From contig CANROE010000006.1 in NCBI GenBank assembly GCA_947632195.1, positions 1 through 64,000 of the forward strand: a stretch of 64,000 nt of DNA. Direction: 5' to 3'. This document shows positions 36,667 to 52,400 of the stretch, piece after piece. Origin of the DNA: an uncultured Clostridia bacterium. GTDB taxonomy: Bacteria > Bacillota > Clostridia > Christensenellales > Borkfalkiaceae. How positions within the stretch are numbered: position 1 is the stretch's first letter; every line of letters begins with the position of its first letter. Both the position numbers and the translations under genes were made by a program. The notes under the pieces were generated by a model. The model saw only the letters and a list, made by a program, of their open reading frames with translations, searched no databases and was not told the DNA's origin.

Positions 36667-36668
36667 TT

Positions 36669-36701: not shown

Positions 36702-36798
36702 AGGGGTTAGTTTCGCTCTTTCATTGAAACAATTCGCCCGCCCGCAAGTTTCTTCGTAAAAACAAAAAGGCAAAAGTAATTGCCAAATTGAGTGCGCT

Positions 36799-37008
36799 TA
36801 TGGAAAAGCGTGGTTTTCCAACGCGCAGTATTTTGGAACACGCCCTTGGCGCCCCTTGTAGGGGAGCTGGCGAGGCGCCAGCCGAGACTGAGGGGTTTTC
36901 GAGAACCCTTTCGGCACTGCGTGCCACTTTCCCTAAAAGGGACAGCAAGGAGCCCCACCTGTCTCGCTTTGCTCGCCACCTGCCCCCACATGTGGGGGCA
37001 GGTCATAT
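36799..37008. repeat. REP-like cluster of short palindromes
   Basis: Palindromes lie in a row: GCTGGCG-AGG-CGCCAGC (about 36870-36888), CCCTTTTAGGG-type and CGGCACTGCGTGCC-type hairpins, and a 24-bp palindrome CCTGCCCCCACA/TGTGGGGGCAGG (36979-37002). The CCTTGGCGCCCCTTGTAGGGG...GACTGAGGGG layout recalls the widespread GGCTCCC...CCTCAGTC repeats of Clostridia genomes (recalled, not searched). Apart from this and the elements listed next to it, 36702-37190 holds no gene. Confidence 0.5.
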
Positions 37009-37018
37009 GCGCAACACC

Positions 37019-37114
37019 ATTCCTAAATCACGTCACCCAAAGCTTGTCGAAGAGTGTCCGCATGATAAACAAGGACATTCCTCGACTACGCTCGGAATGA
37101 CGTAATTAAGAATG
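37019..37114. repeat. MITE-like element, copy 2 (96 bp)
   Basis: Ends ATTCCTAAATCACGTCA (37019-37035) and TGACGTAATTAAGAATG (37098-37114) form an imperfect terminal inverted repeat. The interior contains the GTCAT..CGAGC pattern and shares blocks with copy 1 (10293-10443) in opposite orientation. Both copies are flanked by TAA. Confidence 0.6.
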
Positions 37115-37190
37115 CCCCTCTTATATACCCCTGCCCTCGGGCAAAAAAACCATACACTTATAACGAAGGGAAAAAGAAAGGAAAACATAT

Positions 37191-39638
37191 ATGTCGGTGT
37201 TTTTATTGATCATAGCGAGTTTACTTCCGATGGCCGCATGCGTCGGATTTTATCTGCTCGAAAAAAAGACTCCCTTCGGTAAGTTGCGCTATTTCGTCCG
37301 CCAGATCATCATCGGCATTGTGTTCGGCGGGATCACGGTCATGGCGACGGAGGTATTCAGTACCAACATCGGCACCGCGCTCATCAACGCGCGCGACGCG
37401 GCTCCGCTCACGGCGGGATTGTTCCTCGGCGGCCCTGCGGGGATCATTGCGGGCGTCATCGGCGGCGCGGAACGGGCGCTTTGCGTCCTTTGGAACGCAA
37501 GCGCTGCCTACACCGTGATCGCATGCTCCGTCTCCACCGCGCTTGCGGGCGTGTTCGGCTTTTTGTGCAGAAAGTTCCTGTTCGGGAACAAAGCCCCCTC
37601 GTGGTCGTATACCCTCCTTATCGCGCTCACTACGGAAGTCCTGCACATGCTGCTCATCTTCCTCACCAACATGACGGACATCCAAAAGGCGTTCTCCGTG
37701 GTGGAACAGGCGTCCATCCCGATGATCCTCGTGAACACCCTCTCCGTGACCGTCTCCGCCATGATCGTCTCCCTCCTCGACGGGAAAAAGCTCTTCTCCT
37801 TCGGAAAACGGACGATCGCACAGATCTTTGTGACCATTCTCTTCCTCTGCGTCGCCGTGGCATTTGCGGCAACGAGTATCTTCACCTACTTCTTACAGGG
37901 CAACATCGTAAAATCAGACACCAAGCGCACCCTCTCCATGGTCACGCGGGACGTCACCGAGGACATCCGCGAGGCCTCCGATTTGAAACTTTTGGAAAAT
38001 GCGCGGAGCGCAGCCGAAGAGCTCACAAAGGACCGCCATCAAAGCGGGGCCGATTTCTCCTTCCTCGACGCCTACGGGGATGAGATCAACATCGTGAACG
38101 AGAACGGCATTATCGTACAATCCACAAAGGAGGAGTTCATCGGCTTTGACATGCATTCCGACGGGGACGGTGGGGAGCAGTCGGCAGAATTTTTGTGCCT
38201 TTTGGGGAATACCGAGGAATATGTGCAGCCCTACGGCCCTATCTCCATAGACGCGAACATCTTCATGAAATATGCGGGCAAAAAACTTTCCCCCGGCGAA
38301 TGTGAATTCTTGCCGAACGGCGGCTTTGTGCAGGTCGGGCTCAATTCGGAGAGCTACTATCGAGCGCTCGAAGAGCGCGTGAAGATCGCGGCGGAGAACA
38401 GACACCTCGGGCGGGAGGGGTTCGTGCTCATCTTCGATGAAACGTTCAAACTCATCAGCGCGCCCGAAGGACACAGGGAAGATACCTTTTCCCACCTCGG
38501 CGCAGAGGGCTACCGCTTTGACGAGGGCGAGCCCTTCCTCACCGAAGTTTCGGGCATAAAAAGTTACTGCCAATACAGCCATACCGAGGGCTATTATATC
38601 ATCGCGGTCTACCCCGAGCGGGATGCGGCGCTCACCCGCAACATTTCGGTATATGTGCTCCTCTTTGTGGAGATCATCGTCTTTTCCGCCCTATTTGTCT
38701 TTATCTACCTGCTCATCAACAGGCGCATCGTCGGCAACATCGACAAGGTAAACAGCTCCCTCGCGCAGATCACGGAGGGCAACCTCGACGTTGCGGTGGA
38801 CGTGCGCGACGGCTTGGAATTTTCCCACCTTTCGGACGATATCAACGCCACCGTCGCCACCTTGAAACATTACATAGAGGCGGAGGCGAAACGGCTCGAC
38901 AAGGAGCTCGAATTCGCACAGCGCATTCAGCTCTCCGCCCTGCCCTCTGTGTTCCCGCCCTATCCCGACCACAGCGAGTTCGATATCTTCGCCTCCATGG
39001 ACGCAGCAAAGGAAGTGGGCGGCGACTTCTACGACTTCTACTTTGCGGGCCCCAACAAATTCGTGTTTATGATCGCGGACGTCTCGGGCAAGGGGATCCC
39101 CGCCGCCATGTTCATGATGACCGCAAAGGCCCACCTGCGCAACATGACCGAGAGCGGCATGGACATTGCAGAAGTCTTTACCCGTGTCAACCGCCGTCTC
39201 TGCGAGAGCAACGCGGCGGACATGTTCGTCACGGCGTGGATGGGCGCCATCGACCTCTCAACGGGCATGCTCTCCTTCGTGAACGCGGGGCACAACCCGC
39301 CCCTCATCAAGCACAAGGACGGTACGTTTGAATATCTGCGCACGAAGGTGAACTTCATTCTCGCGGGCATGGACATGACCCGCTACAAGAAACAGGAATT
39401 GCAGCTTGCGCCCGGGGACGAGATCTTCCTCTACACCGACGGCGTGACGGAGGCCACCGACCCGCAGGTGGAACTCTTCGGCGAGGAGCGCCTCCAAAGT
39501 TGCCTCAACGAGGCGCACGCGCCGAACCCCACCGCCCTCTGTAAGCGGGTGAAGAAGGCGGTGGACGCCTTTGCCGACAGCGCGCCGCAATTCGACGACA
39601 TCACGATGGTCGCAGTCCGTTTCAACCACCTTGCTTGA
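37191..39638 (+). CDS. membrane SpoIIE-type PP2C phosphatase with LytS-like and sensor domains
   Basis: The protein has 815 residues. About six N-terminal helices (to ~190) resemble the 5TMR_LYT sensor (TAGLFLGGPAGIIAGVIGGAER). A second anchor (~210-235) leads to an extracellular Cache-like domain (~240-475), a membrane helix (VLLFVEIIVFSALFVFIYLLI), a HAMP linker (SLAQITEGNLDVAVDVRDGLEF) and a SpoIIE PP2C domain with metal-binding SMDAAKEVGGDFYDFYF and ISDVSGKG-like motif IADVSGKGIPAAMFM. It should dephosphorylate a STAS antagonist in response to an outside signal. The likely target is the STAS protein at 47771. AAAGGAAAAC precedes the ATG. Confidence 0.88.
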   Translation: MSVFLLIIASLLPMAACVGFYLLEKKTPFGKLRYFVRQIIIGIVFGGITVMATEVFSTNIGTALINARDAAPLTAGLFLGGPAGIIAGVIGGAERALCVLWNASAAYTVIACSVSTALAGVFGFLCRKFLFGNKAPSWSYTLLIALTTEVLHMLLIFLTNMTDIQKAFSVVEQASIPMILVNTLSVTVSAMIVSLLDGKKLFSFGKRTIAQIFVTILFLCVAVAFAATSIFTYFLQGNIVKSDTKRTLSMVTRDVTEDIREASDLKLLENARSAAEELTKDRHQSGADFSFLDAYGDEINIVNENGIIVQSTKEEFIGFDMHSDGDGGEQSAEFLCLLGNTEEYVQPYGPISIDANIFMKYAGKKLSPGECEFLPNGGFVQVGLNSESYYRALEERVKIAAENRHLGREGFVLIFDETFKLISAPEGHREDTFSHLGAEGYRFDEGEPFLTEVSGIKSYCQYSHTEGYYIIAVYPERDAALTRNISVYVLLFVEIIVFSALFVFIYLLINRRIVGNIDKVNSSLAQITEGNLDVAVDVRDGLEFSHLSDDINATVATLKHYIEAEAKRLDKELEFAQRIQLSALPSVFPPYPDHSEFDIFASMDAAKEVGGDFYDFYFAGPNKFVFMIADVSGKGIPAAMFMMTAKAHLRNMTESGMDIAEVFTRVNRRLCESNAADMFVTAWMGAIDLSTGMLSFVNAGHNPPLIKHKDGTFEYLRTKVNFILAGMDMTRYKKQELQLAPGDEIFLYTDGVTEATDPQVELFGEERLQSCLNEAHAPNPTALCKRVKKAVDAFADSAPQFDDITMVAVRFNHLA

Positions 39639-39649
39639 AAAAACGATGA

Positions 39650-39682
39650 AAAGCGCCCGCGCGGGACCCGCGCGGGCGCTTT
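39650..39682. terminator. hairpin between the phosphatase and peptide P1 genes
   Basis: AAAGCGCCCGCGCG (39650-39663) pairs with 39669-39682. A very stable stem between convergent genes. Confidence 0.7.
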
Positions 39683-39708
39683 GATCGGCTTTCGCCTTTG
39701 ATACATTT

Positions 39709-40014
39709 TTATAGACTTTTCACTGCGCAGCGGCATTGGCAGCGGTAACAGTAATACCCGCAGCCCGAAACGTCGATGCCGAGGCGGTCTCCCTTTAAAC
39801 AGAGCGCGCAGACGAGGTTCCCCGCAAGCTGCTCCGTGCCGCCGCCGACCATATCGAGATCGTCGTCGGAAAGTTCCCCCGTACCGTTCCAGCGGTCGAA
39901 ATAGATTTGTGCGTCCTCCTCGGACAGCTCTATCCGCTGCTGCCGCGCAAGTTCCACCAACTCCCGCGCAGAATGGGCCTGCTTGGAAAGTTCAATTAAA
40001 TCGAATGGCGTCAT
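39709..40014 (-). CDS. peptide P1: Nif11-like leader with seven-cysteine core
   Basis: The protein has 101 residues. Residues 1-59 form a Nif11-like leader (SARELVELARQQRIELSEED, then ELSDDDLDMVGGG) that ends in the Gly-Gly processing site. The core (60-101) has seven Cys at about 69, 72, 85, 89, 92, 94 and 96, with CALC, SGCGYYC and CYRCQCRC motifs. The leader aligns with that of P2 at 41846. It should be a secreted or modified peptide processed by the C39 exporter at 44612. It has its own promoter and an AGGTGAGG site. The Cys could form disulfides, thioethers or bind metal. Confidence 0.78.
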   Translation of the reverse strand: MTPFDLIELSKQAHSARELVELARQQRIELSEEDAQIYFDRWNGTGELSDDDLDMVGGGTEQLAGNLVCALCLKGDRLGIDVSGCGYYCYRCQCRCAVKSL

Positions 40015-40043
40015 ATCCTCACCTTCTCGTATTCTCCGCCTTT

Positions 40044-40073
40044 ATTGTACCATATCCCTATGCGAAAAGGCAA
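40044..40073 (-). promoter_or_regulatory. promoter of peptide P1
   Basis: On the minus strand TTGCCT (40073-40068), an 18-bp spacer and TACAAT (40049-40044). It is divergent from the response-regulator promoter. Confidence 0.65.
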
Positions 40074-40111
40074 TCGCATAGAGGAAATTGTCCGCAAATG
40101 GGGCGCATTTG

Positions 40112-40140
40112 TTGCTTTTTTTCGCAAAATATGTTATAAT
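40112..40140 (+). promoter_or_regulatory. promoter of the response regulator
   Basis: TTGCTT (40112-40117), a 17-bp spacer and TATAAT (40135-40140). Confidence 0.75.
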
Positions 40141-40183
40141 CAGCCTATTCTATCGCAGCGGCGCAGCCGCGCTTTAAAGTGCC

Positions 40184-40834
40184 ATGGACCTTTCCCGTAA
40201 AATTCTCATGTTAGACGACGCAAGCGTAACAGCTCCGCTCTGCTCTTATTTGGGGCAGCAGGGGTTCGTTTGCCGTACGGCGGAGACTTTTGCGGAGGGA
40301 CGCGCCCTTCTCTTTGAGGAAAAGTTCGACATGATCGTTTCCGAACTTGCCCTCCCCGACGGAACGGCGGACGAGCTGTTCGGAAGAGAGCTTCCCATCG
40401 TCATCTATTCCGCAACTACGGACGACGACGCGGTGCTCCGCTTTCTCGCGCTCGGCGCGGCCGATTACATCTTCAAGCCGTGCTCCCCGCGCGTGCTGGC
40501 GGCGCGGATCGCATTGCGGTTGCCGCAGCGCAACAATACCGTAACTTGCAGCGGGCTTTCTCTGAATATGAGCTTGCGCACGGCGTATTATGGCGGCCGG
40601 CCCGTAAAACTCACCTCGTCCGAATTCAACATTCTGCGCTTTCTGATGGCGCACCCCGGGAAATTTTTCCCCGCAGACGTCATTTACGAAAGGGTGTGGA
40701 ACGCTTCCAGCATGCAGACAAGCGTTGTGCGCTTTCACATCTCCAACCTGAAAAAGACGCTGTTCGCCGTTACGGGGAAGAATTTGATCCTCTCCGAATT
40801 CGGCCTCGGTTACGCCTTCGCCTCCGAAGAATGA
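40184..40834 (+). CDS. OmpR-family response regulator with Glu at the phosphorylation site
   Basis: The protein has 216 residues. The receiver starts KILMLDDASVT (acid pair Asp11/12) and has conserved IYSA and FKP. The position of the phospho-accepting Asp holds Glu54 (FDMIVSELALPDG, where the family has ..LDLMLPDG). The C-terminal winged helix is complete (KLTSSEFNILRFLMAHPGK...VVRFHISNLKKTLF). Glu often mimics phosphorylation, so constitutive activity is possible. No histidine kinase is adjacent. The start has no good ribosome site. It diverges from peptide P1, a plausible target. Confidence 0.82.
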   Translation: MDLSRKILMLDDASVTAPLCSYLGQQGFVCRTAETFAEGRALLFEEKFDMIVSELALPDGTADELFGRELPIVIYSATTDDDAVLRFLALGAADYIFKPCSPRVLAARIALRLPQRNNTVTCSGLSLNMSLRTAYYGGRPVKLTSSEFNILRFLMAHPGKFFPADVIYERVWNASSMQTSVVRFHISNLKKTLFAVTGKNLILSEFGLGYAFASEE

Positions 40835-40839
40835 CGATC

Positions 40840-40864
40840 GTCCGGCTTTGCCGGACTTTTTTTA
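40840..40864 (+). terminator. intrinsic terminator
   Basis: GTCCGGC-TTT-GCCGGAC (40840-40856) is followed by seven T residues. Confidence 0.88.
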
Positions 40865-40895
40865 TCGCAGCGGTTTTACACAGCTTTGTACAGCT

Positions 40896-41456
40896 TTACA
40901 GCGTGAGCCCCGTCAATTTCTCGATCGCCGCTTTATCCCAAAAGTTGTTTTCCCAATAGAAATAGGCGTCCTTCCTCTTTTTGAAAATGCGGAAGGGCAT
41001 ATCGGTATTGTCATAGATGTGACAGATATCGCATACTTCCAAAAGGGATGGGATCAACCCGAGCGCGCGGGCATATCGCTCCCTGATCTTCTCTGCGGGG
41101 ACGTCGTGCCCGCCCGAGGCGAACCGCCTCATCACACGGTGGATGTTGATGTTGACGTCCGACGTCAGCACATAGATACAGCGGATAAAATATCCCGCCT
41201 CTTTCGCCCGCCGCAAGAGATTGATGTTGCGGTCGGTGGACATCACCGTCTCGAAGGTAAAGTTCTTGCCGAGGGAGAGCACATACTCCCGCATTTCCTC
41301 CGCAAGGACGGCCGCCTCCATGTCGGTGCAGTCGGTCGCGCGTTTGATGTCGTCCGCGTTGATGTAGGGCTGGATGATCTTCGCCATTTTCGTGACGGTG
41401 CTCTTTCCGCTCCCGTTCGGCCCCGCAAAGACGATGATCTCAGGTTTCATCTCCAT
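40896..41456 (-). CDS. zeta-toxin-like P-loop kinase
   Basis: The protein has 186 residues. The Walker A is FAGPNGSGKST near the N-terminus. INADDIKRA and FETVMSTDRNINLLRRAKEAGYFIRCIYV follow, the zeta-toxin/AAA_33 layout. Zeta toxins phosphorylate UDP-GlcNAc; other members act on other small substrates. ATG at 41456 follows GGGAGGCG and overlaps the end of the upstream 94-aa gene by 17 bases. Two-gene order and coupling fit a toxin-antitoxin pair, but toxicity is not shown and the family also has non-toxic members. Confidence 0.78.
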   Translation of the reverse strand: MEMKPEIIVFAGPNGSGKSTVTKMAKIIQPYINADDIKRATDCTDMEAAVLAEEMREYVLSLGKNFTFETVMSTDRNINLLRRAKEAGYFIRCIYVLTSDVNINIHRVMRRFASGGHDVPAEKIRERYARALGLIPSLLEVCDICHIYDNTDMPFRIFKKRKDAYFYWENNFWDKAAIEKLTGLTL

Positions 41457-41724
41457 AAACGCGCCTCCCGTCCGGGTATTCGATGTAGGACGATTTCCGC
41501 TCATGGTCGTAGCCCGTGATGGGCAAACCCTGTTCTTTGCTCTTCCTGTTTTCCTGCTCGATCGCCTCTTTGAAACGCTTTACGAGTTCATCGTCGTCGA
41601 CGCCGCAAGTCGAATCGAGTTCGTTAGGCTTTTTGGGATCGTTATCCTGCGCTTTCAGCGCCTCATGAAATCCCTTTAAAATATTCTTTTTCGCTTCTTC
41701 GCCGTTCGGGCCTTTCCGCTCCAT
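41440..41724 (-). CDS. small hydrophilic partner of the zeta-like protein, possible antitoxin
   Basis: The protein has 94 residues, is highly charged and has no membrane segment. The middle carries DDDELVKRFKEAIEQENRKSKEQGLPI, and the end is YIEYPDGRRVYGDET. It lies directly upstream of the zeta-like kinase with a 17-base overlap and a ribosome site GAGGAGAAGGAG. Epsilon antitoxins are small helical proteins, so a similar role is possible. No clear family was recognised. Confidence 0.6.
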   Translation of the reverse strand: MERKGPNGEEAKKNILKGFHEALKAQDNDPKKPNELDSTCGVDDDELVKRFKEAIEQENRKSKEQGLPITGYDHERKSSYIEYPDGRRVYGDET

Positions 41725-41737
41725 CTCTCCTTCTCCT

Positions 41738-41776
41738 CAAAAAAATCACCGGCGGCCGCAAAGGGACTGCCGGTGA
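41738..41776 (-). terminator. intrinsic terminator of the P3-P2 peptide operon
   Basis: On the minus strand TCACCGGC (41776-41769), a 15-nt loop and GCCGGTGA (41753-41746), then a T7 run. It separates the peptide operon from the zeta-like pair. Confidence 0.8.
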
Positions 41777-41845
41777 CTGCTGCTGTCGGGTCAACGCCAA
41801 AACGGCATAGCCGTGCCGTATCCTTCGCTCCCCAAACAGCGCCCG

Positions 41846-42061
41846 TCAAAACGTCTTTTTAAAGGGCAGCTGCATAGAGCCGGAATATTTGATCCCGCCG
41901 GAGACCATGTCCATATCCTCATCCGCGATCTCACTTGTAAGGCGGGTGAAAAGCGCACCGGCTTCCTCGGCGCTCATTTGCACGCCGTTTTCACGGGCAA
42001 GTGCGGCGAGTTCTTCCGCCGACTTTGCCGTGCGGAACTTTGCCAACATCTTTTCGTCCAT
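41846..42061 (-). CDS. peptide P2: Nif11-like leader with short core
   Basis: The protein has 71 residues. The leader (MLAKFRTAKSAEELAALAR, then EIADEDMDMVSGG) aligns with P1 through A.SA.EL..LAR and DMV.GG. The core after Gly-Gly is only 15 residues (IKYSGSMQLPFKKTF), basic and Cys-free. It lies 24 bases after P3 with a strong AAGGAGG site and is in the same transcript. It should be cleaved and exported by the adjacent C39 transporter. The short, unmodified-looking core suggests a linear signalling or antimicrobial peptide. Confidence 0.75.
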   Translation of the reverse strand: MDEKMLAKFRTAKSAEELAALARENGVQMSAEEAGALFTRLTSEIADEDMDMVSGGIKYSGSMQLPFKKTF

Positions 42062-42085
42062 TCGTCCGCCCTCCTTCGGCCGGGT

Positions 42086-42295
42086 TTAAAACTTCTGGGT
42101 AGGCTTATAGGGCTGCGCGGGTGCGGGCGTTCCCACCTTCCCCATCGAGGGCATCTCGCTCTGCTGGTATTTCTTTCCCAACGACACAGCGCCGTCTGCT
42201 TTTCCGAGCTTGGAAAAATCCGTGCCGCCGGCCACTCCGTCGAGTTCTTCGTCTTTGAGTTCTTCGATCTCATTCTTATTTTCTTTGTTTTCCAT
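42086..42295 (-). CDS. peptide P3: double-glycine leader peptide
   Basis: The protein has 69 residues. A short acidic leader (NEIEELKDEELDGVAGG) ends in Gly-Gly. The ~45-residue core is Lys/Gly/Pro-rich with GKVGTPAPAQPYKP near the end and has no Cys. This leader lacks the Nif11 helix, so P3 is a different precursor type that still fits C39 processing. ATG at 42295 follows GGGAG; a longer reading from 42337 has no ribosome site. First gene after a consensus promoter. Confidence 0.7.
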   Translation of the reverse strand: MENKENKNEIEELKDEELDGVAGGTDFSKLGKADGAVSLGKKYQQSEMPSMGKVGTPAPAQPYKPTQKF

Positions 42296-42354
42296 TCTTG
42301 TGATCTCCCGAATTAAAGTTTTCGATATTCCGCCCAAGCGGTTTTTGTACTTTC

Positions 42355-42383
42355 ATTATAGCATGCTTCTTTGCAAAATGCAA
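42355..42383 (-). promoter_or_regulatory. strong promoter of the P3-P2 peptide operon
   Basis: On the minus strand TTGCAT (42383-42378), a 17-bp spacer and TATAAT (42360-42355). The leader contains a small CCGCTT-GGGCGG hairpin. Confidence 0.85.
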
Positions 42384-42416
42384 TAGCTTGAAACGCATTC
42401 AAACAAATTCTAACAA

Positions 42417-44600
42417 TTAGCCTTCGAGACGCTGGCGGGCGACAAGCTCGGCGAATTTGCCGTTTTTTGCGATAAGCTCGTCATAGGTGCCGTCCTCGGC
42501 GATCTTCCCGTTTTCGAGATAGATGATCCTGTCGCACTGCTTGATGGTGGAGAGGCGGTGCGCAATGACGATGCGGGTGCATTTGAGATGGTCCAAGGAA
42601 TCCGAGACCTTTTTCTGGGTCAGATTGTCGAGCGCGCTCGTCGCCTCGTCGAACATGAGGATCTTGGGTTTCGGGGCGATGGCGCGCGCGATCATGAGCC
42701 GTTGGCGCTGTCCTCCCGAGACGCCGCCGCTGCCCTCCGAAATGAGGGTCTGCATGCCCATCGGCATTTTACGGATGTCGTCGGCAATGCCCGCAAGTTC
42801 CGCAGCCTCCCACGCGTCGTCGAGGGTAAGCCAGGGCGCGGAAATGGTGATGTTGGAATAGATGTCCCCCTGGAACAATTTGCCATCCTGCATGACCGTG
42901 CCGATCCTGCGGCGCAGCGATTTTAAGTCGATGCCCGCGATGTCCTTTCCGTCGTAATACACGGCGCCCTTCTGGGGCGTTTCAAACCCGAGCATGATCC
43001 GCATGAGGGTGGACTTTCCGCACCCCGTTGCGCCGACGAAGGCGACGTACTGCCCCGGGCGGATTTTGAGGGAGAGATTGTCCAAAACATTGGGCATGTT
43101 ATCACTGTAACGGAAGGTGATATTGTTGAGTTCGATCCCGCCAGAAAGCCTTGTCACCACTTGCTTGCCTTCCGAAACTTCGGGCACCGTTTCCAGAATA
43201 GGCTTTACCATGTGCAGGATGGGTTTGATGTTCGCGACCGTCAGGGTGATCCCCGCAAGGGACACAAAGGCGCCGGACACCATGCCGTAAGCCGTGTTAA
43301 ACGCGTAAAAATCGGCAACGGAGACTTTGCTCAGCGCCGCCATAAAGTATATGGCGAAATTGCCCGCAAGCGTGATAATCAGCGTAATGACGTTCCCGTA
43401 AGTCAGAACATCGGGCTCGTCGAAATAGATCTTGATGAATTCCGCGTAATGTTTGCCCCACCGCGAGAAGGCGCGCTTTTCCGCGCCCGTCAGTTTGATC
43501 TTCTGCACGCCCGAGATGAGCGCATAGCTCATTCCGCTCTCTTTCGCCTCCAACTCCATCTGTTTTTTGGAGACTTTTGCGCGCACCACGGTGGAGATCA
43601 CCGCAAAAAGCAGCATCACCACGATCACCGCAACGGCGGGGATCACCAGCGCGGGCGCAAACACGAAGATCTGCGACAGATAGATGAGGGAGAAGAGGGA
43701 GGTTAGACCGGTGGAAAGAAAGACTTCCACCAGCATGGCACAGAGGGTATTGAGAAACTCTGCGCGCGTGGAGAGCTCGCCCGCGCTGTAATTTTTGAAA
43801 AAGTCGGCGGGAAGAGACATCAGCCGCGCCATGGTCGCGGCCTGTACGGTCACGTTCAGCTTGGTGGAGATGCGCGCGATCAAGAGTGATTTCACCGCTT
43901 CGATCAAAAGAGACGAGAGCGTTACGCACACCATGAACACCGCAATGGAGACAAGCAGCGTGATGTCTCCGCTTTCGATGACGGCTCCGAACAACAGTTG
44001 GTTGAGTTTCGGCATGAGCAGCCCCACCAACGTGACGACCAGCGCCGCAACCGCCGTTAAAATGTAGTCCGCAGGGGAGAGGATCCCCGCAATGTATTTC
44101 AGAAGTGCGCCCGTTTTGAGCTTTTTCAGCGGGAAAGGCTTATAAAAGGCGATCGCCTCACCCTCAAAAAGCGCCTCGTTCCTGCGGGTGACCTTCACCC
44201 GTTTGCCCTTCTCGGTATCGAAATAGGAATACCCCGAAAGACCGGACGGAAGGAGCGCAATAAGGGTGCCGTCCGACTTTTTTACGCCGAGCATGGCGCC
44301 CACTGCGTCCTTATGCCACCTCTTTTCGAGCTGTACCGAGCGCCGCATGATCCCGTACGGACGCATGAGATATTCGAGCCGTTCGTTCATATCCTTGACC
44401 GAATCGGGGACATCCTGCATCTTTGCATGATAGTAGCCCAGGATCTCGGCGATGGCGTTCTTTGCCTTGCCCTTTTCGTCTGCGAGCATGGCGGAGATGT
44501 TCTTCCCCGTGATGGCGTCCGAAATTTCCACGAACGTCTCTTCAAAAGTTTCCTGGTCGCGTTGTTTCCGCTCTTTGATTTGTTCGTCAAACCAACCCAT
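42417..44600 (-). CDS. NHLM-type peptide exporter, ABC transporter without peptidase
   Basis: The protein has 727 residues. An N-terminal cytoplasmic region of about 165 residues, helical and without a C39 Cys, precedes six membrane helices (PADYILTAVAALVVTLVGLLMP onward). The ATPase has Walker A VGATGCGKST, signature GGVSGGQRQRL, Walker B ILMFDEATSALD and the H-loop IAHRL. This matches the second ABC of NHLM microcin-type systems. With the C39 ABC it probably forms a heterodimeric exporter. It starts 11 bases after that gene. Confidence 0.85.
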   Translation of the reverse strand: MGWFDEQIKERKQRDQETFEETFVEISDAITGKNISAMLADEKGKAKNAIAEILGYYHAKMQDVPDSVKDMNERLEYLMRPYGIMRRSVQLEKRWHKDAVGAMLGVKKSDGTLIALLPSGLSGYSYFDTEKGKRVKVTRRNEALFEGEAIAFYKPFPLKKLKTGALLKYIAGILSPADYILTAVAALVVTLVGLLMPKLNQLLFGAVIESGDITLLVSIAVFMVCVTLSSLLIEAVKSLLIARISTKLNVTVQAATMARLMSLPADFFKNYSAGELSTRAEFLNTLCAMLVEVFLSTGLTSLFSLIYLSQIFVFAPALVIPAVAVIVVMLLFAVISTVVRAKVSKKQMELEAKESGMSYALISGVQKIKLTGAEKRAFSRWGKHYAEFIKIYFDEPDVLTYGNVITLIITLAGNFAIYFMAALSKVSVADFYAFNTAYGMVSGAFVSLAGITLTVANIKPILHMVKPILETVPEVSEGKQVVTRLSGGIELNNITFRYSDNMPNVLDNLSLKIRPGQYVAFVGATGCGKSTLMRIMLGFETPQKGAVYYDGKDIAGIDLKSLRRRIGTVMQDGKLFQGDIYSNITISAPWLTLDDAWEAAELAGIADDIRKMPMGMQTLISEGSGGVSGGQRQRLMIARAIAPKPKILMFDEATSALDNLTQKKVSDSLDHLKCTRIVIAHRLSTIKQCDRIIYLENGKIAEDGTYDELIAKNGKFAELVARQRLEG

Positions 44601-44611
44601 GTCCGTCCCTC

Positions 44612-46795
44612 CTACTCATTGGAGACGAGCTGCGTATAGAAGCCGCCCTTTGCATACAGTTCGTCGTGCGTGCCGCGCTCCACGACCTTGCCTTGGTCGA
44701 GAACGATGATCTCGTCGCAATCGCGGATCGTCGAAAGCCTGTGCGCCACAACGATACAGGTGATCCCTCTGTTTTTGATCGATTTCACGACCTCGTATTC
44801 CGTCTTGGCGTCGAGCGCGCTCGTCGCCTCGTCCAGAATGATGACCGTCGGGTCCTGCGCAAGCACGCGGGCGATCTCCATTCTCTGTCGCTGCCCGCCC
44901 GAAAAGTCCTTGCCGCCCTCGGTGATGACGTAGCTGTAACCACCGTCGCGCTGCATGATGTCCTCGTGCAGTTGCGCGTCTTTGGCGGCGAGAATCATTT
45001 CAAAGTCCTCGATGGAGCTGTCCCACATCTTGATGTTGTTGCGGATACTGTCCTCGAAAAGAATGATGTCCTGGTCGACAACGGCAAGCGAGCCCGTAAA
45101 CACGCCGCGATCGATCTGCTTGATGGGCTTGCCGTCGAATAAAATTTCGCCGCTCCACGGTTGATACAACCCAGAAATCAGCTTGGTGAGCGTAGATTTT
45201 CCGCAGCCCGACCCGCCGACAAACGCCACACGGGAGCCCGGTTTGAGCGTCATGCTGAAATCTTCGATGAGCGGCGCGGCAAGGCGGGAATAGCCGAACG
45301 TAACGTTCTTCAACTCCACGAGGCCGGAGAGCTTATCGTATTCTTTCAGCTCTCCGCCCGCCTCGCTGTTTTCGCAGTTCACGTCGGTGGGATACTCCAT
45401 CACGTCCTCTACCCGCTCCATCTCCGTGCGCATTTCCTGAATGGTCTGGCCTGCGGAAATGAGCGTCATCGCGGGCGCGGTGAAGGAGGCGAGGAACCCC
45501 TGGAACGCCATCACCATACCTACGGTAAACTCCCCTTGCATCGTGAGCCAGACGCCGAGAATGAGAACGGCGACGTTCGCCAGCGAGGTGACAAGGGTGG
45601 GAATGAGCCCGAGATATTGGTTCAATCTTTCGTATCTCGTTTCCTGCGTGTTGACGCTCGCCTGGTAGCCCGCCCATTTCGCGAAATAGCCGTTTTCGGC
45701 GCCGCTTGCCTTGATCGTCTCGATCATTTCGATCCCCGCAACGGTAGCGCCCGCAAGTTTGCCTGCGTCGCGCATTTGCACGCGGGTGATGTTCACCCGC
45801 TTTTTGGAAATAATGCGGGACATAAACAGGTTGATGACGATGGACGCAAGGCCGACGAGCGCCAAGATCCAGCTGTATTGCACCATGATGACGAGATAAA
45901 AGACCATCATCGCCGTATTCAGCACCAGCGGCGCCAGGGTATTTACGAGCGTATTGGCAATTTCGCCGTTCGCTTTCTGGCGGAGCTGGATGTCCCCCGC
46001 CATCCGCTGGGAGAAAAATTCCATCGGCATGCGCAGCACTTTCCACAAAAAGGTGGAGTCTCCGACGGAGGTGAATTTCGCCTCGATCCTCCACATGGTG
46101 CGCGCTTCGATGAACGCGACGACGATCTGGACGACGGAGACGGCCGCAAGCAGGCCGAAGAACGGATAGAACCATTCGGGATTCTCCTGCGTCAGCAATT
46201 TATCGAGCAACACATGCGAAAACACGGGCTGGATCACGCCGAGCAAGGAGATGAGGACGGTCGTCAAAACGACGAACACCACCGCAATGCCCGCGCCGAC
46301 GAGCCTCTTTTTCGCAAACGCAAGCATGCTCTTGGGCTTTCCGCCAGGCACGAAGTTCTCCGTCGGCTCGAACATCAGGCAGATCCCCGTAAAGCTCTTG
46401 TCAAAGGTCTCCATGGAGACGGTGTAATTGCCCTTCGCGGGGTCGTTGAGCACCGCTTTCTTCCCCTTGAATCCGCACAAAACGACAAAATGGTTGAAAT
46501 TCCAATGGATGATACAGGGGAATTTCCCCGCCGTTTTGAGCTGTTCGGGCTCGTACTTATATCCCTTAGCCGAGAGCCCGTAATTGCGGGCGGCTTTCAG
46601 CAGATTGCGCGCGTTGGAGCCGTCGCGGGAAACGCCGCAGTCGGCGCGCACCTGTTCGAGCGGGATCCACTTGCCATAGTAGGCAAGGATCATCGTGAGC
46701 GCTGCGGCGCCGCATTCGAGCGTCTCCATCTGCATGGCAACGGGCACTTTTGCCGCCCCTTTGGTGAGCGGTTTGTTCTGTTTCTTTTTCGACAT
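44612..46795 (-). CDS. NHLM-type peptide exporter, C39 peptidase-ABC transporter
   Basis: The protein has 727 residues. The N-terminal C39 peptidase has catalytic Cys28 (METLECGAAALTM), His in WNFNHFVVL and Asp in LNDPAKGNYT. It should cut after Gly-Gly leaders. Six membrane helices follow, then an ATPase with Walker A VGGSGCGKST, signature FSGGQRQRM and Walker B ILDEATSALD. The three Gly-Gly peptides nearby are its likely substrates. GAGGTGCG precedes the start, and it is coupled to the HlyD-like gene by a 9-base gap. Confidence 0.9.
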   Translation of the reverse strand: MSKKKQNKPLTKGAAKVPVAMQMETLECGAAALTMILAYYGKWIPLEQVRADCGVSRDGSNARNLLKAARNYGLSAKGYKYEPEQLKTAGKFPCIIHWNFNHFVVLCGFKGKKAVLNDPAKGNYTVSMETFDKSFTGICLMFEPTENFVPGGKPKSMLAFAKKRLVGAGIAVVFVVLTTVLISLLGVIQPVFSHVLLDKLLTQENPEWFYPFFGLLAAVSVVQIVVAFIEARTMWRIEAKFTSVGDSTFLWKVLRMPMEFFSQRMAGDIQLRQKANGEIANTLVNTLAPLVLNTAMMVFYLVIMVQYSWILALVGLASIVINLFMSRIISKKRVNITRVQMRDAGKLAGATVAGIEMIETIKASGAENGYFAKWAGYQASVNTQETRYERLNQYLGLIPTLVTSLANVAVLILGVWLTMQGEFTVGMVMAFQGFLASFTAPAMTLISAGQTIQEMRTEMERVEDVMEYPTDVNCENSEAGGELKEYDKLSGLVELKNVTFGYSRLAAPLIEDFSMTLKPGSRVAFVGGSGCGKSTLTKLISGLYQPWSGEILFDGKPIKQIDRGVFTGSLAVVDQDIILFEDSIRNNIKMWDSSIEDFEMILAAKDAQLHEDIMQRDGGYSYVITEGGKDFSGGQRQRMEIARVLAQDPTVIILDEATSALDAKTEYEVVKSIKNRGITCIVVAHRLSTIRDCDEIIVLDQGKVVERGTHDELYAKGGFYTQLVSNE

Positions 46796-46804
46796 AAGCG
46801 CACC

Positions 46805-47278
46805 TCAATGGAAGAGGAGAGAAATGGGAGAAATGCTGTCCGTTACGATCGACGCCTGATAGACGCCCGCAGGGAGCTCCGCATCCAGCGTGACCGCATA
46901 CACCCATTCCCCGAGTTGAAGGCCGCCCACATGCAGCGTGTAAGCCGTAAAGCTGTCATCCACCGCGACGGGCTCTCCCGAAACTGTTGACACGGTGTAT
47001 TCTTTGCTGCCCACCCGCACGGTGTTGCCTTCGGAAATGCCCGAAAATTCCGCCTCTTTGACATAGCAGACCGTTGTCCCGTCCTGCGCGACCGCAACTG
47101 CGGTGACTTTGCTCTCCACCTTTCCGACGACCGCCCATACGAAAAAGCCGGCAAGCAAGAGAAAAACCGCCGCCAGAATGATCCATATGCCGGGGTTTGT
47201 CACACGGATATAATCGCTCAGCTGTTCCGGAGACGACGCCCGCTCGATACTCTTTTTTCTGAAAATAGGATTGTCCAT
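46805..47278 (-). CDS. short HlyD/NHLM secretion-like membrane protein
   Basis: The protein has 157 residues. The N-terminus FRKKSIERASSPEQLSDYIRVTNPG matches the start of NHLM bacteriocin secretion proteins, followed by one membrane helix (IWIILAAVFLLLAGFFVWAVVG). The remaining ~100 residues are beta-rich, containing VESKVTAVAVAQDGTTVCYV and later strands, like a single lipoyl/barrel-sandwich part. The usual coiled-coil arm is absent. HlyD proteins normally run to several hundred residues, so this is a minimal form that suits a monoderm envelope. Confidence 0.75.
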   Translation of the reverse strand: MDNPIFRKKSIERASSPEQLSDYIRVTNPGIWIILAAVFLLLAGFFVWAVVGKVESKVTAVAVAQDGTTVCYVKEAEFSGISEGNTVRVGSKEYTVSTVSGEPVAVDDSFTAYTLHVGGLQLGEWVYAVTLDAELPAGVYQASIVTDSISPISLLFH

Positions 47279-47321
47279 GCCCTTCCTTCCTTTGCTCCGG
47301 TCATCTGTCCCGGGCCCGCTT

Positions 47322-47729
47322 TTAAAAATTCTTGACGATCTTTAAGATGTTCTGTCCGTCCCGATACTCATAGGACATTCGATCCATCGTCTTTTTCACC
47401 ATATAAATGCCCAATCCGCCGATCCCCCGCTCTTCCGCAGACAGCGAAATGTCGGGGTCCTTTTTCTGCAACGGATCGAACGGCACGCCGCGATCGAGAA
47501 AGGTGAGAACGGCGGCACGGGGTTCCTCCGTAAACTCCACGCGCACGGTCGCAAAGCCCGATCCCTCTCCGTAGGCATAGCGGGCGATGTTGCCGAACAA
47601 CTCGTCTATGGCAACGTCGATCTGCATTTGCACCTTAACGGGACACCCCGCCGCTTGCAGCTGTCCGTTTACGAATTCCGTGACTTCTTCGATGTTTTCC
47701 ACCGCTGCGCCGATCGTCAGTTCCTTCAT
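47322..47729 (-). CDS. RsbW-like anti-sigma/serine kinase (HATPase_c_2)
   Basis: The protein has 135 residues. The N box is IDELFGNIARYAY, G1 is LDRGVPFDP and G2 is GIGGLGIYMVKKTMD. These are the marks of RsbW/SpoIIAB-type kinases. It should phosphorylate the STAS protein encoded just upstream and hold a partner when the STAS is phosphorylated. No sigma-factor gene is in the window, so its regulated partner is unknown and may be elsewhere or may not be a sigma factor. Confidence 0.88.
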   Translation of the reverse strand: MKELTIGAAVENIEEVTEFVNGQLQAAGCPVKVQMQIDVAIDELFGNIARYAYGEGSGFATVRVEFTEEPRAAVLTFLDRGVPFDPLQKKDPDISLSAEERGIGGLGIYMVKKTMDRMSYEYRDGQNILKIVKNF

Positions 47730-47770
47730 GTTCTCCTCCGCTTTTCTTGCGGGAAAGCCGCTCCGTTTCT

Positions 47771-48067
47771 TTATTCCACCGTAAGGATCTCGGAAAAGCC
47801 CGTGATCTCAAACACTTCCATGATCGTCTCGTTGACGTGGCGGATCACCATGGAGCCCTGCTTGTTCATCACCTTCTGCGCCGCAAGCAACACACGCAGC
47901 CCTGCCGAAGAGAGATATTCAAGCTCCGAAAAATCGAACACGAGGGCGGTAACGCCGTCAATGCTCCGTTTGAGTTCTGCTTCGAGCTGGGGCGCCGTCG
48001 TCGTATCCAGGCGCCCCGAAACGGAGATTTCAAGTTCCGTCCCCTGCCCTTTCTTATCAATGGTCAT
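47771..48067 (-). CDS. STAS-domain anti-sigma factor antagonist (RsbV/SpoIIAA-like)
   Basis: The protein has 98 residues. VSGRLDTTTAPQLEAEL and the phosphorylation loop ELEYLSSAGLRVLL (Ser about residue 56-57) are typical. Unphosphorylated, it should bind the RsbW-like kinase and free that kinase's partner. The SpoIIE-type phosphatase at 37191 is the natural activator. First gene of the exporter operon, behind a consensus promoter. GGAGGAG lies before the ATG. Confidence 0.92.
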   Translation of the reverse strand: MTIDKKGQGTELEISVSGRLDTTTAPQLEAELKRSIDGVTALVFDFSELEYLSSAGLRVLLAAQKVMNKQGSMVIRHVNETIMEVFEITGFSEILTVE

Positions 48068-48104
48068 CGTGTTTCTCCTCCGAAAACATTCATTTTATTT
48101 TTTT

Positions 48105-48133
48105 ATTATAGCACACTTCGCCGCGCTTGTCAA
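48105..48133 (-). promoter_or_regulatory. consensus sigma-A promoter of the STAS-kinase-exporter operon
   Basis: On the minus strand TTGACA (48133-48128), a 17-bp spacer and TATAAT (48110-48105), located in the gap after the membrane-protein gene. It shows that STAS, kinase, HlyD-like and both ABC genes form one transcript. Confidence 0.9.
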
Positions 48134-48143
48134 ACGCACGCAT

Positions 48144-49376
48144 TTAAAAGAACAGATAGATCAAGACGATCACGACAATGACCAACAGATAGATGGCGGA
48201 AAAGACGGAATACTGCCGCCGCGACGTGGGCTTGCGGTCGTCGAATAAGAAGAGGAACGGAATGCACAGCGCGGCATAGTAGAACTTGCCGAGCCCCCAT
48301 TTCCCCGCGAAAGAGAAGGTGCCGAGAAGATAGTCGAGCGCGCATAAGAGCAGGAGACAGCCGCTCAAAAAGACAGCCGTCTCCAAGGCCCGTCTTTTTG
48401 CGGACCGTACGCTCTCAAACGACCGGGTAGAATAGGTCTTTTTCCTAAGAGCGAGCGTGTGCAGTCCTTTCTCCACCCGCAGCGTCCGCACGGGATAAAA
48501 GCGGTTGCACAGCAAGATACAGCCGATGAACAGGAACGGGGGCAGGTGCCTTGCAGGGAAAAGACACAAAACCAGAACTTCCGGCATGATAACGCCCGAG
48601 CGCGTAAGCCCGTTGACGATAAAGATGGCGAGAATGTAGGCGATGGGGATCGCGCCGAGGGAACGGAAGAGCGCAAGTTTTGTCCGCGTGTTCGCCCATT
48701 TGGGGCGGGTACAGAAGATGATACACATCAAGAGACAGAGCAGCTGGTCGAGAAAGAGGTTGAAGGAAGGCATGTTCTTCAACAGAACGATGATGATCTG
48801 GTCGGTCAGAAAGTCCTCCGCGATTTCCAGCAGCCCCGCCACGCTGTCCGCAGGCAGCAGCTGCCCCTCGGAGTTCACCGCCGCGATGAGTTTGTTGACG
48901 AGGTCGATGATCTCGGCATATCCCCCCATTGCCGTCTCGATAAAGGAAAACAACTGTATCACCAACAAAGTGACGAACCCGATGAGAATGGAATAGACGA
49001 CGAGCTCGGCGAAGAAGAGCAGAATGGACAAGATCGCGGTGCGCCGCGTGAATCGCCCGATCTCGGCGCGGTTGAGATTGAGCACGAAGGAAACCGTCGC
49101 CACGAAATAGAGCGGAACGACGAGAGCCCCCAGGTTGCGCATGATGTCGATCAGAACGCCGAATGCCCCCGGGATATGCAGGGCGGAAAATGCCGCCACC
49201 GCGCCCGCGACGTCGCCCGCCTCCATGGCGTTGAGGGCGTTCCCCGCCTGTTGGAGGGCGTTCAGAATGACGAAATAGGTCGCCAGCTGCGACAGGAAAA
49301 AGAAGATCATGGCAACATAGCGAAGGTAGACAAATCCTCTCCGCTTGCCATAGACGAACGTCTCGTAAATACTCAT
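48144..49376 (-). CDS. polytopic membrane protein of unknown function
   Basis: The protein has 410 residues and about nine hydrophobic segments (YVAMIFFFLSQLATYFVIL, LGALVVPLYFVATVSFVLNL, ILSILLFFAELVVYSILIGFVTLLVIQLF and others). A soluble stretch (about 170-205) lies between helices, and the last 100 residues carry a basic loop. No catalytic motif was recognised. It lies 76 bases before the STAS gene and 78 bases after the 1124-aa lipoprotein, so it probably belongs to that lipoprotein's transcript. Confidence 0.65.
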   Translation of the reverse strand: MSIYETFVYGKRRGFVYLRYVAMIFFFLSQLATYFVILNALQQAGNALNAMEAGDVAGAVAAFSALHIPGAFGVLIDIMRNLGALVVPLYFVATVSFVLNLNRAEIGRFTRRTAILSILLFFAELVVYSILIGFVTLLVIQLFSFIETAMGGYAEIIDLVNKLIAAVNSEGQLLPADSVAGLLEIAEDFLTDQIIIVLLKNMPSFNLFLDQLLCLLMCIIFCTRPKWANTRTKLALFRSLGAIPIAYILAIFIVNGLTRSGVIMPEVLVLCLFPARHLPPFLFIGCILLCNRFYPVRTLRVEKGLHTLALRKKTYSTRSFESVRSAKRRALETAVFLSGCLLLLCALDYLLGTFSFAGKWGLGKFYYAALCIPFLFLFDDRKPTSRRQYSVFSAIYLLVIVVIVLIYLFF

Positions 49377-49454
49377 CCTCTCTCCTCCCGTGTACTTCCG
49401 TACGGGCGGAACGCGTCCCGTCCCGCCCGCTTTGTTTGCGATGTGTTCCTCAAA

Positions 49455-52400
49455 TTACGATGCGTTCTGCAAAAACGCGCCTATCCGCTTTTGTACGTTC
49501 TCTTCGAGATTGCGGTAAAAGAATTGATAGTCATAATAGTGATAGATCCCCTCTTCAAAGATCCCGAGCGTATTATCGTACTCCTTCGGATCGATGTCGG
49601 GCACTTTGAGCGCGCCCCGCGTTTCGTCGATGTATGCGCCCGTGAGCCCCTCTTTCTCCTCGATGAAAGAGCCGTCCGCCTTGTAGAAACACGCGCCCTT
49701 GTTGAGGGACTTTTCGGCGGCCGCCCCGTCTGTTTCCCAATTCAAGGGGTTGATGCAGAGCGACTTTTTCCCCGTAGGAATGATGAGCGAATCTTTGACG
49801 GAGGGTGCCTCGCAGTTGAAGGAGACGATAATGCCGGTGTCCGTTTCGCCCGCCGCGAACTTTAAGCCCGCGCCGTCGAGCTCCTCCTGCGTAATGCTCC
49901 AACCGATCGCATAGCAGGCGACAAGGCGGTCTTTCAATGTACTGCCGTAAAACTCTTTCATGAGACGGAGACAGTGATCGGCGCCCTGCGAGAATCCCGC
50001 AAGGATGATGGGACGGCCTTCGTTCCAATTCCTGAGGTAATATTCAAAGGCGTTTTTGACGTCCGCATAGGCGTAGGTGAGGTAGCCCTCCCGCTCCGCC
50101 GAGCTCACTTCGGACGAATAGGTATAGAGCACCGCCTGGCGGTAGAAGGGAGCGAAGAAACGGGCGTTGTCGTCGTAAATGCCCTTCTCCATGTCGATCG
50201 CGCCGATGAAATTCTTCCGCGCGCTCGAACGGGTGAAATCGAGGATCTCCTGTCCCGCTCCCCCGTTGACGGCAGAGGGGGCGACAAAGAACACATCCGC
50301 CTCCTTGCCTTCAACGTCCGTCTCTTGGTACGCCCAATTGAAGAAATTGGCGTAATCGACGGCGGCGTTTTTATCCGATTTTTCAACCAGAATGCGCAGG
50401 TACTCGCCGCCCTCTTTGATTTGCAGACTGAGCCCGATCACCCATCTGCTACCGTCTGCTGTGACCGCCACGACCGTACTTTCGTCGAGCGTTTCCGTCT
50501 TTGTTACGGTAAAGGGCGCGATCGTTCCGTCCTCCGTAAAGTCGCCGAATGCAAACAGGTGTCCGAGCGCGTATTCGCCTTCTGCAGGGTTGTAGCAGAA
50601 GGCGTCGACGCCGTAACGGCTGTCCGCAGTGTGCAAGACTGTCCGCCAACCGTAGCGCACGGTCTCGGGGTCGGGGCGCCCGTTTTGCAGGGTAAACGCG
50701 AGGATGCCCACGTCTCCGTCGCCGATGTCGAAATAGTAAAGCAGTTCGCTCTCCGACAAAAATTCCCGTTTGTAGCAGATGGTGAGCCGATCGTGCTCGG
50801 TGCCGTCGGGCCACGTCCAGCCGCCGTCCTCGAACACATAGAACGTTCCTTTCCCCGTTTGAGCGCTGTCCTCCGCATACTTGCATTCGCCGTACCTGAT
50901 CCTCATGTCAATGAAGTAGAGAGAGAAATCGACGCACTCCGCATCGGGGGAATAAAATTCGATGTCCGTCACACGCATTTTATCTTCGCCGCTCACTTGG
51001 AGAAGGTCATAATAGATGATATAAGTTCCCCCATCGTTCATGGTATAGTTCAAATAGAAGTGCTCCTCCCCGTCCATCTCGTAGGGGATTGCGCTGTCGA
51101 CGTCAAAACGGAGATAGTCGCTCTCCGAGCTCTCCATATCCTCAAAATGATAGTAACAGACGGGGCCGCTGAGATCGAGCGCACCTAAGCCGAAGTAGCC
51201 CTCCTCGAAGTAGTGCCGCTTCCCCTCTTCGTGCGCTTCGTAATCGCCAACGGTGCGGGTCACGACATATTCGCCGTGCACGGTCACAAAGGTTTTCCCG
51301 TTTTGTTCGGTACATTCGATATGATAACTCTTCCCCTCCGCGTCCGTGAGAACGCTCTCTTCAAGGGAGAGGGTGAAACCGTCCTTTGTCACTGTTTCGC
51401 CTTCGGCGTTTTCAAAGGAAAGGGTCGCGGGATCCTCCGAGCGTTCGCTGTCTCCCGAGAAATAGGAGAGTTCGATCGCGGTGTCATAAGGATTGCCGCT
51501 CTCGTGCGTAAAGACGACTTCCCCTTTGAGGGTGACGATTTTCTCCACAGTAAAGATGAGTTTGACTTCGGGACCGCCGTATTGGAGCGTGACGTGCCAT
51601 GCGCCCTCGTCCGTTGTGACCGTGAAATCGCCGCTCGCGTTTTTGACGATGTCCGCGCCTTGGAAGAATTGCACCTCGCCGCTTTCCATTGGCCCGAACG
51701 CGAACATCGCGTCGAAAACGGGGTCGTCGCCCGACATGTGGTAGAACATCTCCGTCCCCCACTTTCCGTCCTTGGAATAGCGGAGTCCGTGCCACCCGGG
51801 AGCGGCGCTCTCCCAATCGACATTATCGCCGTCGCATTTGAAATAGACGCAAACGAGATCGTTGTCGTACTTCCAATACTCATAGATGAGAAAGTCGCCG
51901 TCCGCGTCCTCCACATGGATGAGATTTCCCGCAGGGCAAGCGAAATCGTGCATACTGCCGTCCGACCATTCCCAGTCCTGATATTCGTAGACGGAAAAGA
52001 CCTCGTCGCCCTCTTCAATGCCGAACCCGTCCGCCGCATAGACGACTTCCCCGTATTTCAAGAACATCTCGATCGTTTCAAACGTACGGGGCTGTGTTTT
52101 TTTGCAGTCGGGGACAAACCGCACGACGTCGCGGACGAGCAGCTTTTCCTCGCTGTTCCCGTTCGCCGGAATGAGGTAACAATAGAGCAGATAGTCGCCG
52201 TCCTTCGTCTCCTGCGTGAAGAATTGAAGGGGGCCGTACTGTTTATGGACGAACGCGTCGGTACCGCCGTCCGCCTCGGCATAGATGCAGAGCTCGCTCC
52301 CGTCCGAAAGGCGGATGGGCTCGCAGCGGAATCGCCATTGCTTGCCGCTGGCGTCGAGCTTTCCCGCGCCGTAGTGTCCCTCTTCGAGAAGAAAACGTTC

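Follow-up and report, generated by a model that had tools for sequence, protein, structure and literature searches.

Partner switching is the textbook form of sigma-factor control, and its Bacillus representatives, RsbU-RsbV-RsbW and SpoIIE-SpoIIAA-SpoIIAB, comprise a phosphatase, a STAS protein and a HATPase kinase. SiaA of Pseudomonas is likewise a SpoIIE-type phosphatase. Bordetella BtrU and BtrW are tied to type III secretion and described as acting on the secretion process (PMC8256260), and Pseudomonas SiaC activates a diguanylate cyclase (PMC8457831). BtrU/V/W and SiaABCD are precedents for an output that is not a sigma factor. The NHLM peptide export cluster was defined by three TIGRFAM families (Haft et al. 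2010, PMC2887384), and the words 'sigma' and 'STAS' are absent from that paper's main text. Here we analyse positions 37191 to 49376 of a 64,000-nucleotide stretch of DNA (the window), on contig C6 of a 1.78 Mb Clostridia genome whose bin is 90% complete. The locus is a member of a recurring Clostridia arrangement in which a partner-switch cassette is joined to an NHLM-type exporter with a shortened HlyD protein. The evidence is comparative throughout; among open-licence papers, none was found that connects partner switching with NHLM exporters or with MATE-HATPase fusions.

The core of the locus is a minus-strand run from 48067 to 42417. It begins with an RsbV-like STAS protein of 98 aa carrying a phosphorylatable SSAG motif (47771..48067), which exceeds the cut-offs of PF01740 and TIGR00377 (72.2 bits for the latter, cut-off 53.45), followed by an RsbW-like HATPase_c_2 kinase of 135 aa (47322..47729; PF13581, 3.7e-22, 79.1 bits, cut-off 27.4). 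Next come a short HlyD-like membrane protein of 157 aa (46805..47278), a C39 peptidase ABC exporter of the NHLM ABC1 type (44612..46795; TIGR03796, 950.1 bits, cut-off 853.3) and a second ABC exporter, NHLM ABC2 (42417..44600; TIGR03797, 723.3 bits, cut-off 709.4). A previous sequence-only reading of this DNA had proposed such a run of exporter, STAS and kinase genes, and all were found in place, with family models over cut-off except for the HlyD-like protein, which aligns to positions 1-77 of 421 of TIGR03794 only and scores 29.4 bits against a cut-off of 156.2. The locus resembles the NHLM/NHLP exporters in its ABC1/ABC2 pair and perhaps also in the Nif11-like leader and Gly-Gly peptides encoded nearby; it differs from them in matching two of the three defining families, its HlyD having 157 aa against a 421-position model.

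The same reading had placed these genes in a shared transcript behind a consensus promoter. The promoter stood without change: a sigma-A TTGACA-17-TATAAT element with extended -10, matching at 12/12 positions, lies at 48105..48133 on the minus strand, in the gap after the gene of a 410 aa membrane protein. The single transcript we infer from spacing, the genes from STAS to ABC2 being separated by 41, 43, 9 and 11 bp. Minus-strand terminator-like sites between STAS and pepA, the first of the peptide genes described below, all fall within the ABC genes, with no more than 8 pairs each. Promoter-like sites number seven, where chance would give 6.1, and the one at 48105-48133 is the only perfect one. 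The 12/12 promoter precedes STAS in eight distinct loci of the window's clade (the window itself, L039 (= L052), L049, L050, L051, L053, L064 and L072), so that an alternative sigma factor is not needed for the STAS-exporter operon; in L062, L063 and L078 the score is 10, 9 and 10 of 12. No 12/12 promoter was seen outside this clade among the STAS starts scored. A shared alternative motif before STAS in other clades was considered and rejected, since the enrichment came from A-rich stretches, from the ribosome site, or from TGAATATGCA, which we take for the end of the coding part of the upstream kinase gene.

At the other end of the locus, as had been claimed, lies a gene for a membrane SpoIIE-type phosphatase with 5TM-LYT and HAMP parts (37191..39638, plus strand; PF07228, 178.1 bits, cut-off 25). 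Its PF07694 (5TM-5TMR_LYT) match is over cut-off at 75.1 bits, that to PF00672 (HAMP) reaches 22.4 against 25, and about 300 residues separate the 5TM-LYT membrane domain from HAMP. Phosphatase, STAS and HATPase kinase with conserved motifs are shared with the Bacillus systems. The sole solved chain matched by the kinase at 0.001 is RsbW (6m36_A), the N-box Glu/Asn and GGLG are kept in 51/51 stand-alone RsbW-type domains, and SS precedes AGLR in 114/120 matches of the STAS subfamily. Unlike the Bacillus systems, the window locus is exporter-linked, has no sigma gene, and remains below the RsbW/SpoIIAA equivalog cut-offs of TIGR01924 (24.7 of 155.05 bits), NF003144 (27.9 of 145) and TIGR02886 (49.5 of 114.75). 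With Bordetella BtrU-BtrV-BtrW the locus has in common that partner-switch proteins are tied to a secretion system, there type III secretion in a Proteobacterium, here a peptide ABC exporter. The likeness to SiaABCD is a SpoIIE-type phosphatase and, as proposed below for the window, a phospho-switched partner with a non-sigma client, which in Pseudomonas is a diguanylate cyclase; the SiaA equivalog scores 62.8 here against a cut-off of 700. The STAS profile (A2) also matched the STAS chain 7ch8_K at 2.8e-5. We take 7ch8 to be the Mla ABC complex and this chain to be MlaB. Mla is a lipid transporter. MlaB offers the parallel of a STAS-only protein that is part of an ABC transporter; on the other side, the window's STAS reaches 19.7 bits against the mlaB NCBIfam cut-off of 90.

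Recurrence was evaluated in samples of the order (n=248), class (n=391) and phylum (n=219), with the window's family represented by 18 listed genomes. In addition, a genome scan with a STAS alignment found 346 relatives; the best 80 of 346, chosen by closeness to the window's STAS, include two duplicate records (L052 = G145, L070 = G029). Many compared genomes are metagenome bins, close named relatives being mostly 'Lapin' bins, and many of their contigs stop near the locus. Domains in relatives were mostly called with our own hidden Markov models (HMMs), built iteratively and compared with Pfam; the HATPase HMM gave 0/620 matches in a shuffled control. The co-occurrence P values for order and class are hypergeometric; all P values ignore kinship.

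An exporter lies on the STAS strand in 46 of the best 80 loci, and in 36 of the 52 whose downstream flank reaches 9.5 kb or more. Among these 46, a SpoIIE domain is found in 36 and an RsbW-type HATPase domain in 38. In the order, 11 genomes have the exporter, 28 the STAS subfamily and 8 both (P 1e-6); in the class the counts are 26, 51 and 14 (P 2e-7), in the phylum 12, 5 and 4, and in the window's family 2, 3 and 2. Conservation across genera, put forward as a sign of a real system, was observed: the association recurs in many Clostridia lineages and three further phylum-sample genomes, above chance. One genome of another genus, G145, has the entire layout from SpoIIE through the 410 aa protein.

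The exporters were also compared by the length of their HlyD. STAS is present in 8/8 order genomes with short-HlyD exporters and in 15/18 of order and class together; as a strict predictor of STAS the short HlyD fails in the class, where the remaining 3/18 genomes lie. Of 20 short-HlyD exporter loci, some of them cut by contig ends, 8 have a STAS-subfamily match no more than about 10 kb away (P 5e-10 in a rough model that assumes two STAS genes for every 2.5 Mb), and L040 has RsbW, not STAS, nearby. Among 15 long-HlyD loci (266-326 aa), only L032 has a nearby STAS, a divergent one; 5/13 genomes with long-HlyD exporters only also carry STAS. Near the 20 short-HlyD loci, STAS (8) is commoner than the RsbW-type kinase (4) or SpoIIE (4), and is therefore the likeliest part to face the exporter, if any does.

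Gene order varies. It is STAS-SpoIIE-RsbW-HlyD-ABC1-ABC2 in L073 and L057, from Ruminococcus- and Ruminiclostridium-labelled bins, and STAS-GH3-MATE-SpoIIE-RsbW-HlyD-ABC1-ABC2-peptides-radical SAM in G029, and in the window's clade SpoIIE lies at the far end of the locus. That linkage persists between clades through this reshuffling is the best evidence of function. The exporter-linkage label was mapped on a mostly unresolved STAS tree of 121 rows and 98 columns, from which L052 and L070 were excluded and in which 18 rows with short flanks bore no label; there it changes 16 times, against 34.6 for shuffled labels. Exporter linkage is inherited along the STAS tree.

We propose that the cassette is a sigma-independent switch acting on transport, with a non-sigma, transport-linked client; judged from the comparisons, this proposal stands at about an even chance. 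The RsbW-like kinase would phosphorylate STAS at the SSAG serine, a chemistry expected from family knowledge, and the membrane SpoIIE-type phosphatase would remove the phosphate in response to a cue sensed by its membrane or extracytoplasmic part. Through its phospho-state, STAS would then determine how active a non-sigma client is, most likely the exporter or a transporter in the same locus, and the exporter would be transcribed strongly and constitutively and gated after translation. The cue is presumably extracellular and peptide export the regulated step. That the client is transport machinery we infer as well, and this is the least certain step. A kinase acting on a non-sigma partner was among the options of the sequence-only reading; indirect support for it comes from MATE-HATPase fusions, the sigma-A promoter and the scarcity of linked sigma genes.

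The fusions were found in STAS neighbourhoods, where 31 of 43 MATE proteins longer than 400 aa, of 541-673 aa, carry a C-terminal HATPase_c_2 domain; MATE proteins lacking it have 447-515 aa, plus one of 665 aa. Both domains exceed Pfam cut-offs in L061:10316-12073, L229:7531-9279, L235:11152-12915 and L253:10185-12038. The weakest members rest on our own HMM, because Pfam gave MatE alone in L031. A profile of stand-alone RsbW recovers 29/31 fusions, 16 of these only at E above 0.01. At 1e-6 the fused-domain profile matches 34/248 order genomes, plain RsbW and SpoIIE-linked domains included. MATE fusions themselves occur in 20/248 order genomes, 11 of them recognised in the loci compared above and the others in an additional set of 14 places, where both domains are present throughout (14/14); another 12 places with weaker matches to the fused profile include no MATE protein. 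The STAS subfamily is present in 18 of these 20 genomes (P 2e-18, kinship ignored), G111 and G238 lacking it.

In the fused domains the N-box Asn is kept in 9/31 and lost in 22/31, and the first two Gly of GGxG are mostly lost, in a motif alignment that is uncertain since its rows are highly divergent; SpoIIE-fused HATPase domains keep the N-box in 31/31. This fits a degenerate kinase domain that serves MATE transporters as a putative docking site for STAS. Weaker cases were also noted: a HATPase-like stretch under cut-off on the L081 ABC ATPase, SDF symporters whose N-terminal part is HATPase-like, and an amino-acid ABC all-in-one transporter with a weak C-terminal one (L094, L104, L106 and L125, whose HATPase parts were called by our own HMM or family clustering only). 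STAS is fused to an APH-type phosphotransferase in L087:15770-16951, L099:10310-11494 and L227:11970-13637, the last also having HATPase_c_2.

A wider claim may be drawn from the same comparisons: that a Clostridia partner-switch family has given up transcription for direct action on membrane transport, a dedicated STAS being the phospho-switchable regulatory subunit of peptide exporters and, via degenerate HATPase docking, of MATE and perhaps other transporters, so that a SpoIIE-type sensor would gate the export of peptides and specialised metabolites sigma-free. We regard this claim in its full extent as tentative and rather doubtful.

Several observations weigh against a transport client. 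The MATE-fused HATPase could equally be an input, with the transporter as sensor. The window's genome contains no MATE-HATPase fusion, its three profile matches being RsbW-type or SpoIIE-linked, and for this reason the fusion argument reaches the window by kinship only. No STAS or HATPase fusion to an exporter protein was found among the over-long exporter open reading frames (ORFs) examined, whose extra parts proved to be out-of-frame or start-codon extensions, a low-complexity tail, or classical NHLM ABC2 N-terminal domains. The pairing is also loose. Only 3/41 STAS places listed for the order have an exporter at a distance of about 10 kb or less (those of the window, G145 and G029), and none was found in 35 further order stretches, which cover all other STAS places of the order except a second copy on contig C5 of the window's genome. 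By coordinates, 5/68 class places are this close (window, G461 twice, G334, G600), and 20 of the 28 order genomes with STAS have no exporter. Conversely, 12/20 short-HlyD exporters lack a STAS at this distance, some of their contigs ending earlier, and at five of eight linked class or order loci (L175, L176, L179, L180, L183) no RsbW-like kinase was found in reach. The C5 copy, with STAS 78% and RsbW 65% identical to those of the window, is accompanied by SpoIIE and a condensation-adenylation-carrier-reductase protein and has neither exporter nor MATE gene. In L062:5141-9732, a locus of the window's own clade, STAS, RsbW, response regulator, pepC and SpoIIE stand together and the exporter, pepA, pepB and Zeta gene are missing, perhaps a deletion leaving a working remnant. 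Finally, the best 80 loci were selected by their closeness to the window's STAS, and the P values ignore kinship.

The sequence-only reading had named independent occurrence in relatives as counter-evidence, and this is partly what was found (20/28 exporterless STAS genomes, 3/41 linked places, L062, C5), yet linkage recurs. Because of the unlinked occurrences, the C5 copy and L062, the switch is a general companion of specialised-metabolite and transport genes, with the NHLM exporter as one frequent partner. On C5 (L043, G000 C5 60000-79000) the switch surrounds the 1362 aa condensation-adenylation-carrier-reductase protein; a switch around such a protein was also seen in L077, L093 and L097, and in L083 an exporter lies behind it.

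Of the other explanations, a classical partner switch survives best. Here the RsbW-like kinase would act as the anti-sigma of a factor whose gene lies elsewhere or, in relatives, of an exporter-side extracytoplasmic function (ECF) sigma factor, and the cue would control transcription of peptides or exporter. We consider this possible and hold it to be clearly short of probable. The kinase does belong to the RsbW/SpoIIAB family, and the nearest solved relatives of the switch proteins are RsbW and SpoIIAA/RsbV-type proteins. Many NHLM exporters have an ECF gene no further than about 10 kb away (L031-L036, L038, L164, L166, L168, L174, L179, L183, L187), whether or not a switch is present; the switch or its STAS accompanies some of them (L031, L057, L179, L183). 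As had been stated, the locus has no sigma gene, nor has that of G145; across the genome there are 11 Sigma70_r2 matches, none inside the window and mostly with no assigned function. Against the anti-sigma explanation, ECF genes are near only 8/80 of the best STAS loci and 4/35 of the order stretches, the operon promoter is perfect sigma-A, and the short switch proteins fall under the RsbW and SpoIIAA equivalog cut-offs. In this genome, moreover, STAS, HATPase and sigma matches form groups of their own at C13 (with a repeat at C43) and at C4. The HATPase match near the L034 exporter belongs, by Pfam, to a histidine kinase. In L033, L036 and L057, exporter-side ECF sigma genes are immediately preceded by small ORFs that bear a 'NAAG' or 'HAAG' motif.

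Switch and exporter might instead be uncoupled, both cassettes gathering in accessory specialised-metabolism islands together with non-ribosomal peptide synthetase (NRPS), GH3, MATE and ribosomally synthesised and post-translationally modified peptide (RiPP) export genes. Such hitchhiking would agree with the patchy presence of the genes, exporter or STAS occurring in 0/9 other genomes of the same genus, with the rarity of close linkage in the unselected samples (3/41 and 5/68 STAS places), and with the NRPS-like, GH3 and MATE genes that adjoin the same STAS subfamily. Of the 35 order stretches, 19 contain a SpoIIE domain, 28 a HATPase, 10 a MATE-HATPase fusion and 7 an NRPS-like gene. We nevertheless find it improbable, given a tight operon with gaps of 9-43 bp, linkage kept despite reshuffled order, co-occurrence in genomes where the genes are not linked (e.g. 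G010, G079, G123), and the low number of label changes on the STAS tree (16, with 34.6 for shuffled labels). A route from the switch to DNA-binding regulators encoded in the locus (a Glu-bearing response regulator here, Agr-like LytTR pairs elsewhere), and not to the exporter, is very unlikely: the response regulator is kept beside pepC in the clade, exporterless L062 included, and LytTR-type regulator and GHKL-type kinase genes lie directly upstream of STAS in 11/80 loci, but such regulators are restricted to particular clades, most exporter-linked STAS loci showing none, and we know of no contact of RsbW or STAS with such regulators.

Between phosphatase and exporter lie the three Gly-Gly peptides that had been pointed out, of which only pepB resembles a library leader. 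PepA (42086..42295, minus strand) has its ATG start inside an 83 aa ORF and has homologues following ABC2 in clade loci; it has no match in NCBIfam, NHLP/Nif11 precursor models included. PepB (41846..42061, minus strand) has a Nif11-like leader with 28.6 bits against TIGR03798, under the cut-off of 32.3. PepC (39709..40014, minus strand) has no match in Pfam or NCBIfam; comparison of clade homologues gives it a Nif11-like leader, and the homologues conserve a zinc-ribbon-like CxxC...CxxC core as well as the leader, beside the phosphatase and regulator genes. PepC is perhaps a signal rather than a variable bacteriocin. The strongest terminator-like hairpin (15 pairs; 39650..39682, minus strand) follows it. 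Elsewhere, six Nif11-leader-like peptides with Cys-containing cores, then a radical SAM/SPASM gene, lie behind the exporter at L031:11448-15506.

The interval also holds three genes that the sequence-only reading had not mentioned. One encodes an orphan OmpR-type response regulator (40184..40834, plus strand; PF00072, PF00486) in which the phospho-acceptor Asp is replaced by Glu. The Glu is present in 12/12 aligned clade rows (11 distinct records), and an outgroup in L090 has Asp; this suggests that the regulator may act independently of phosphorylation. The others are a Zeta-toxin-like kinase (40896..41504, minus strand; PF06414, 43.8 bits, over cut-off) and its 94 aa partner (41440..41724, minus strand), which has no family match and is kept beside zeta in relatives. 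The pair is retained in several exporter loci of other bins and fragmented in L057 and L058. Upstream of the STAS promoter, the multi-pass membrane protein of 410 aa (48144..49376, minus strand) has no Pfam match and, among the loci examined, homologues in the nearest relatives only (L039, L049-L052). A PHROGs search with this and the 94 aa protein gave nothing, viral contigs searched with the RsbW-like protein gave no relative, and an Rfam scan of 36000-54000 gave nothing at gathering scores. A 1124 aa DUF3089 protein at 49455-52829 adjoins the locus in several clade members.

If the transport reading is true, partner switching would be extended from the control of sigma factors to the direct control of secretion. 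It would offer a handle on when gut Clostridia release peptides that are largely unstudied, and the question of the client would become testable for RsbW/STAS pairs that lack a sigma factor.

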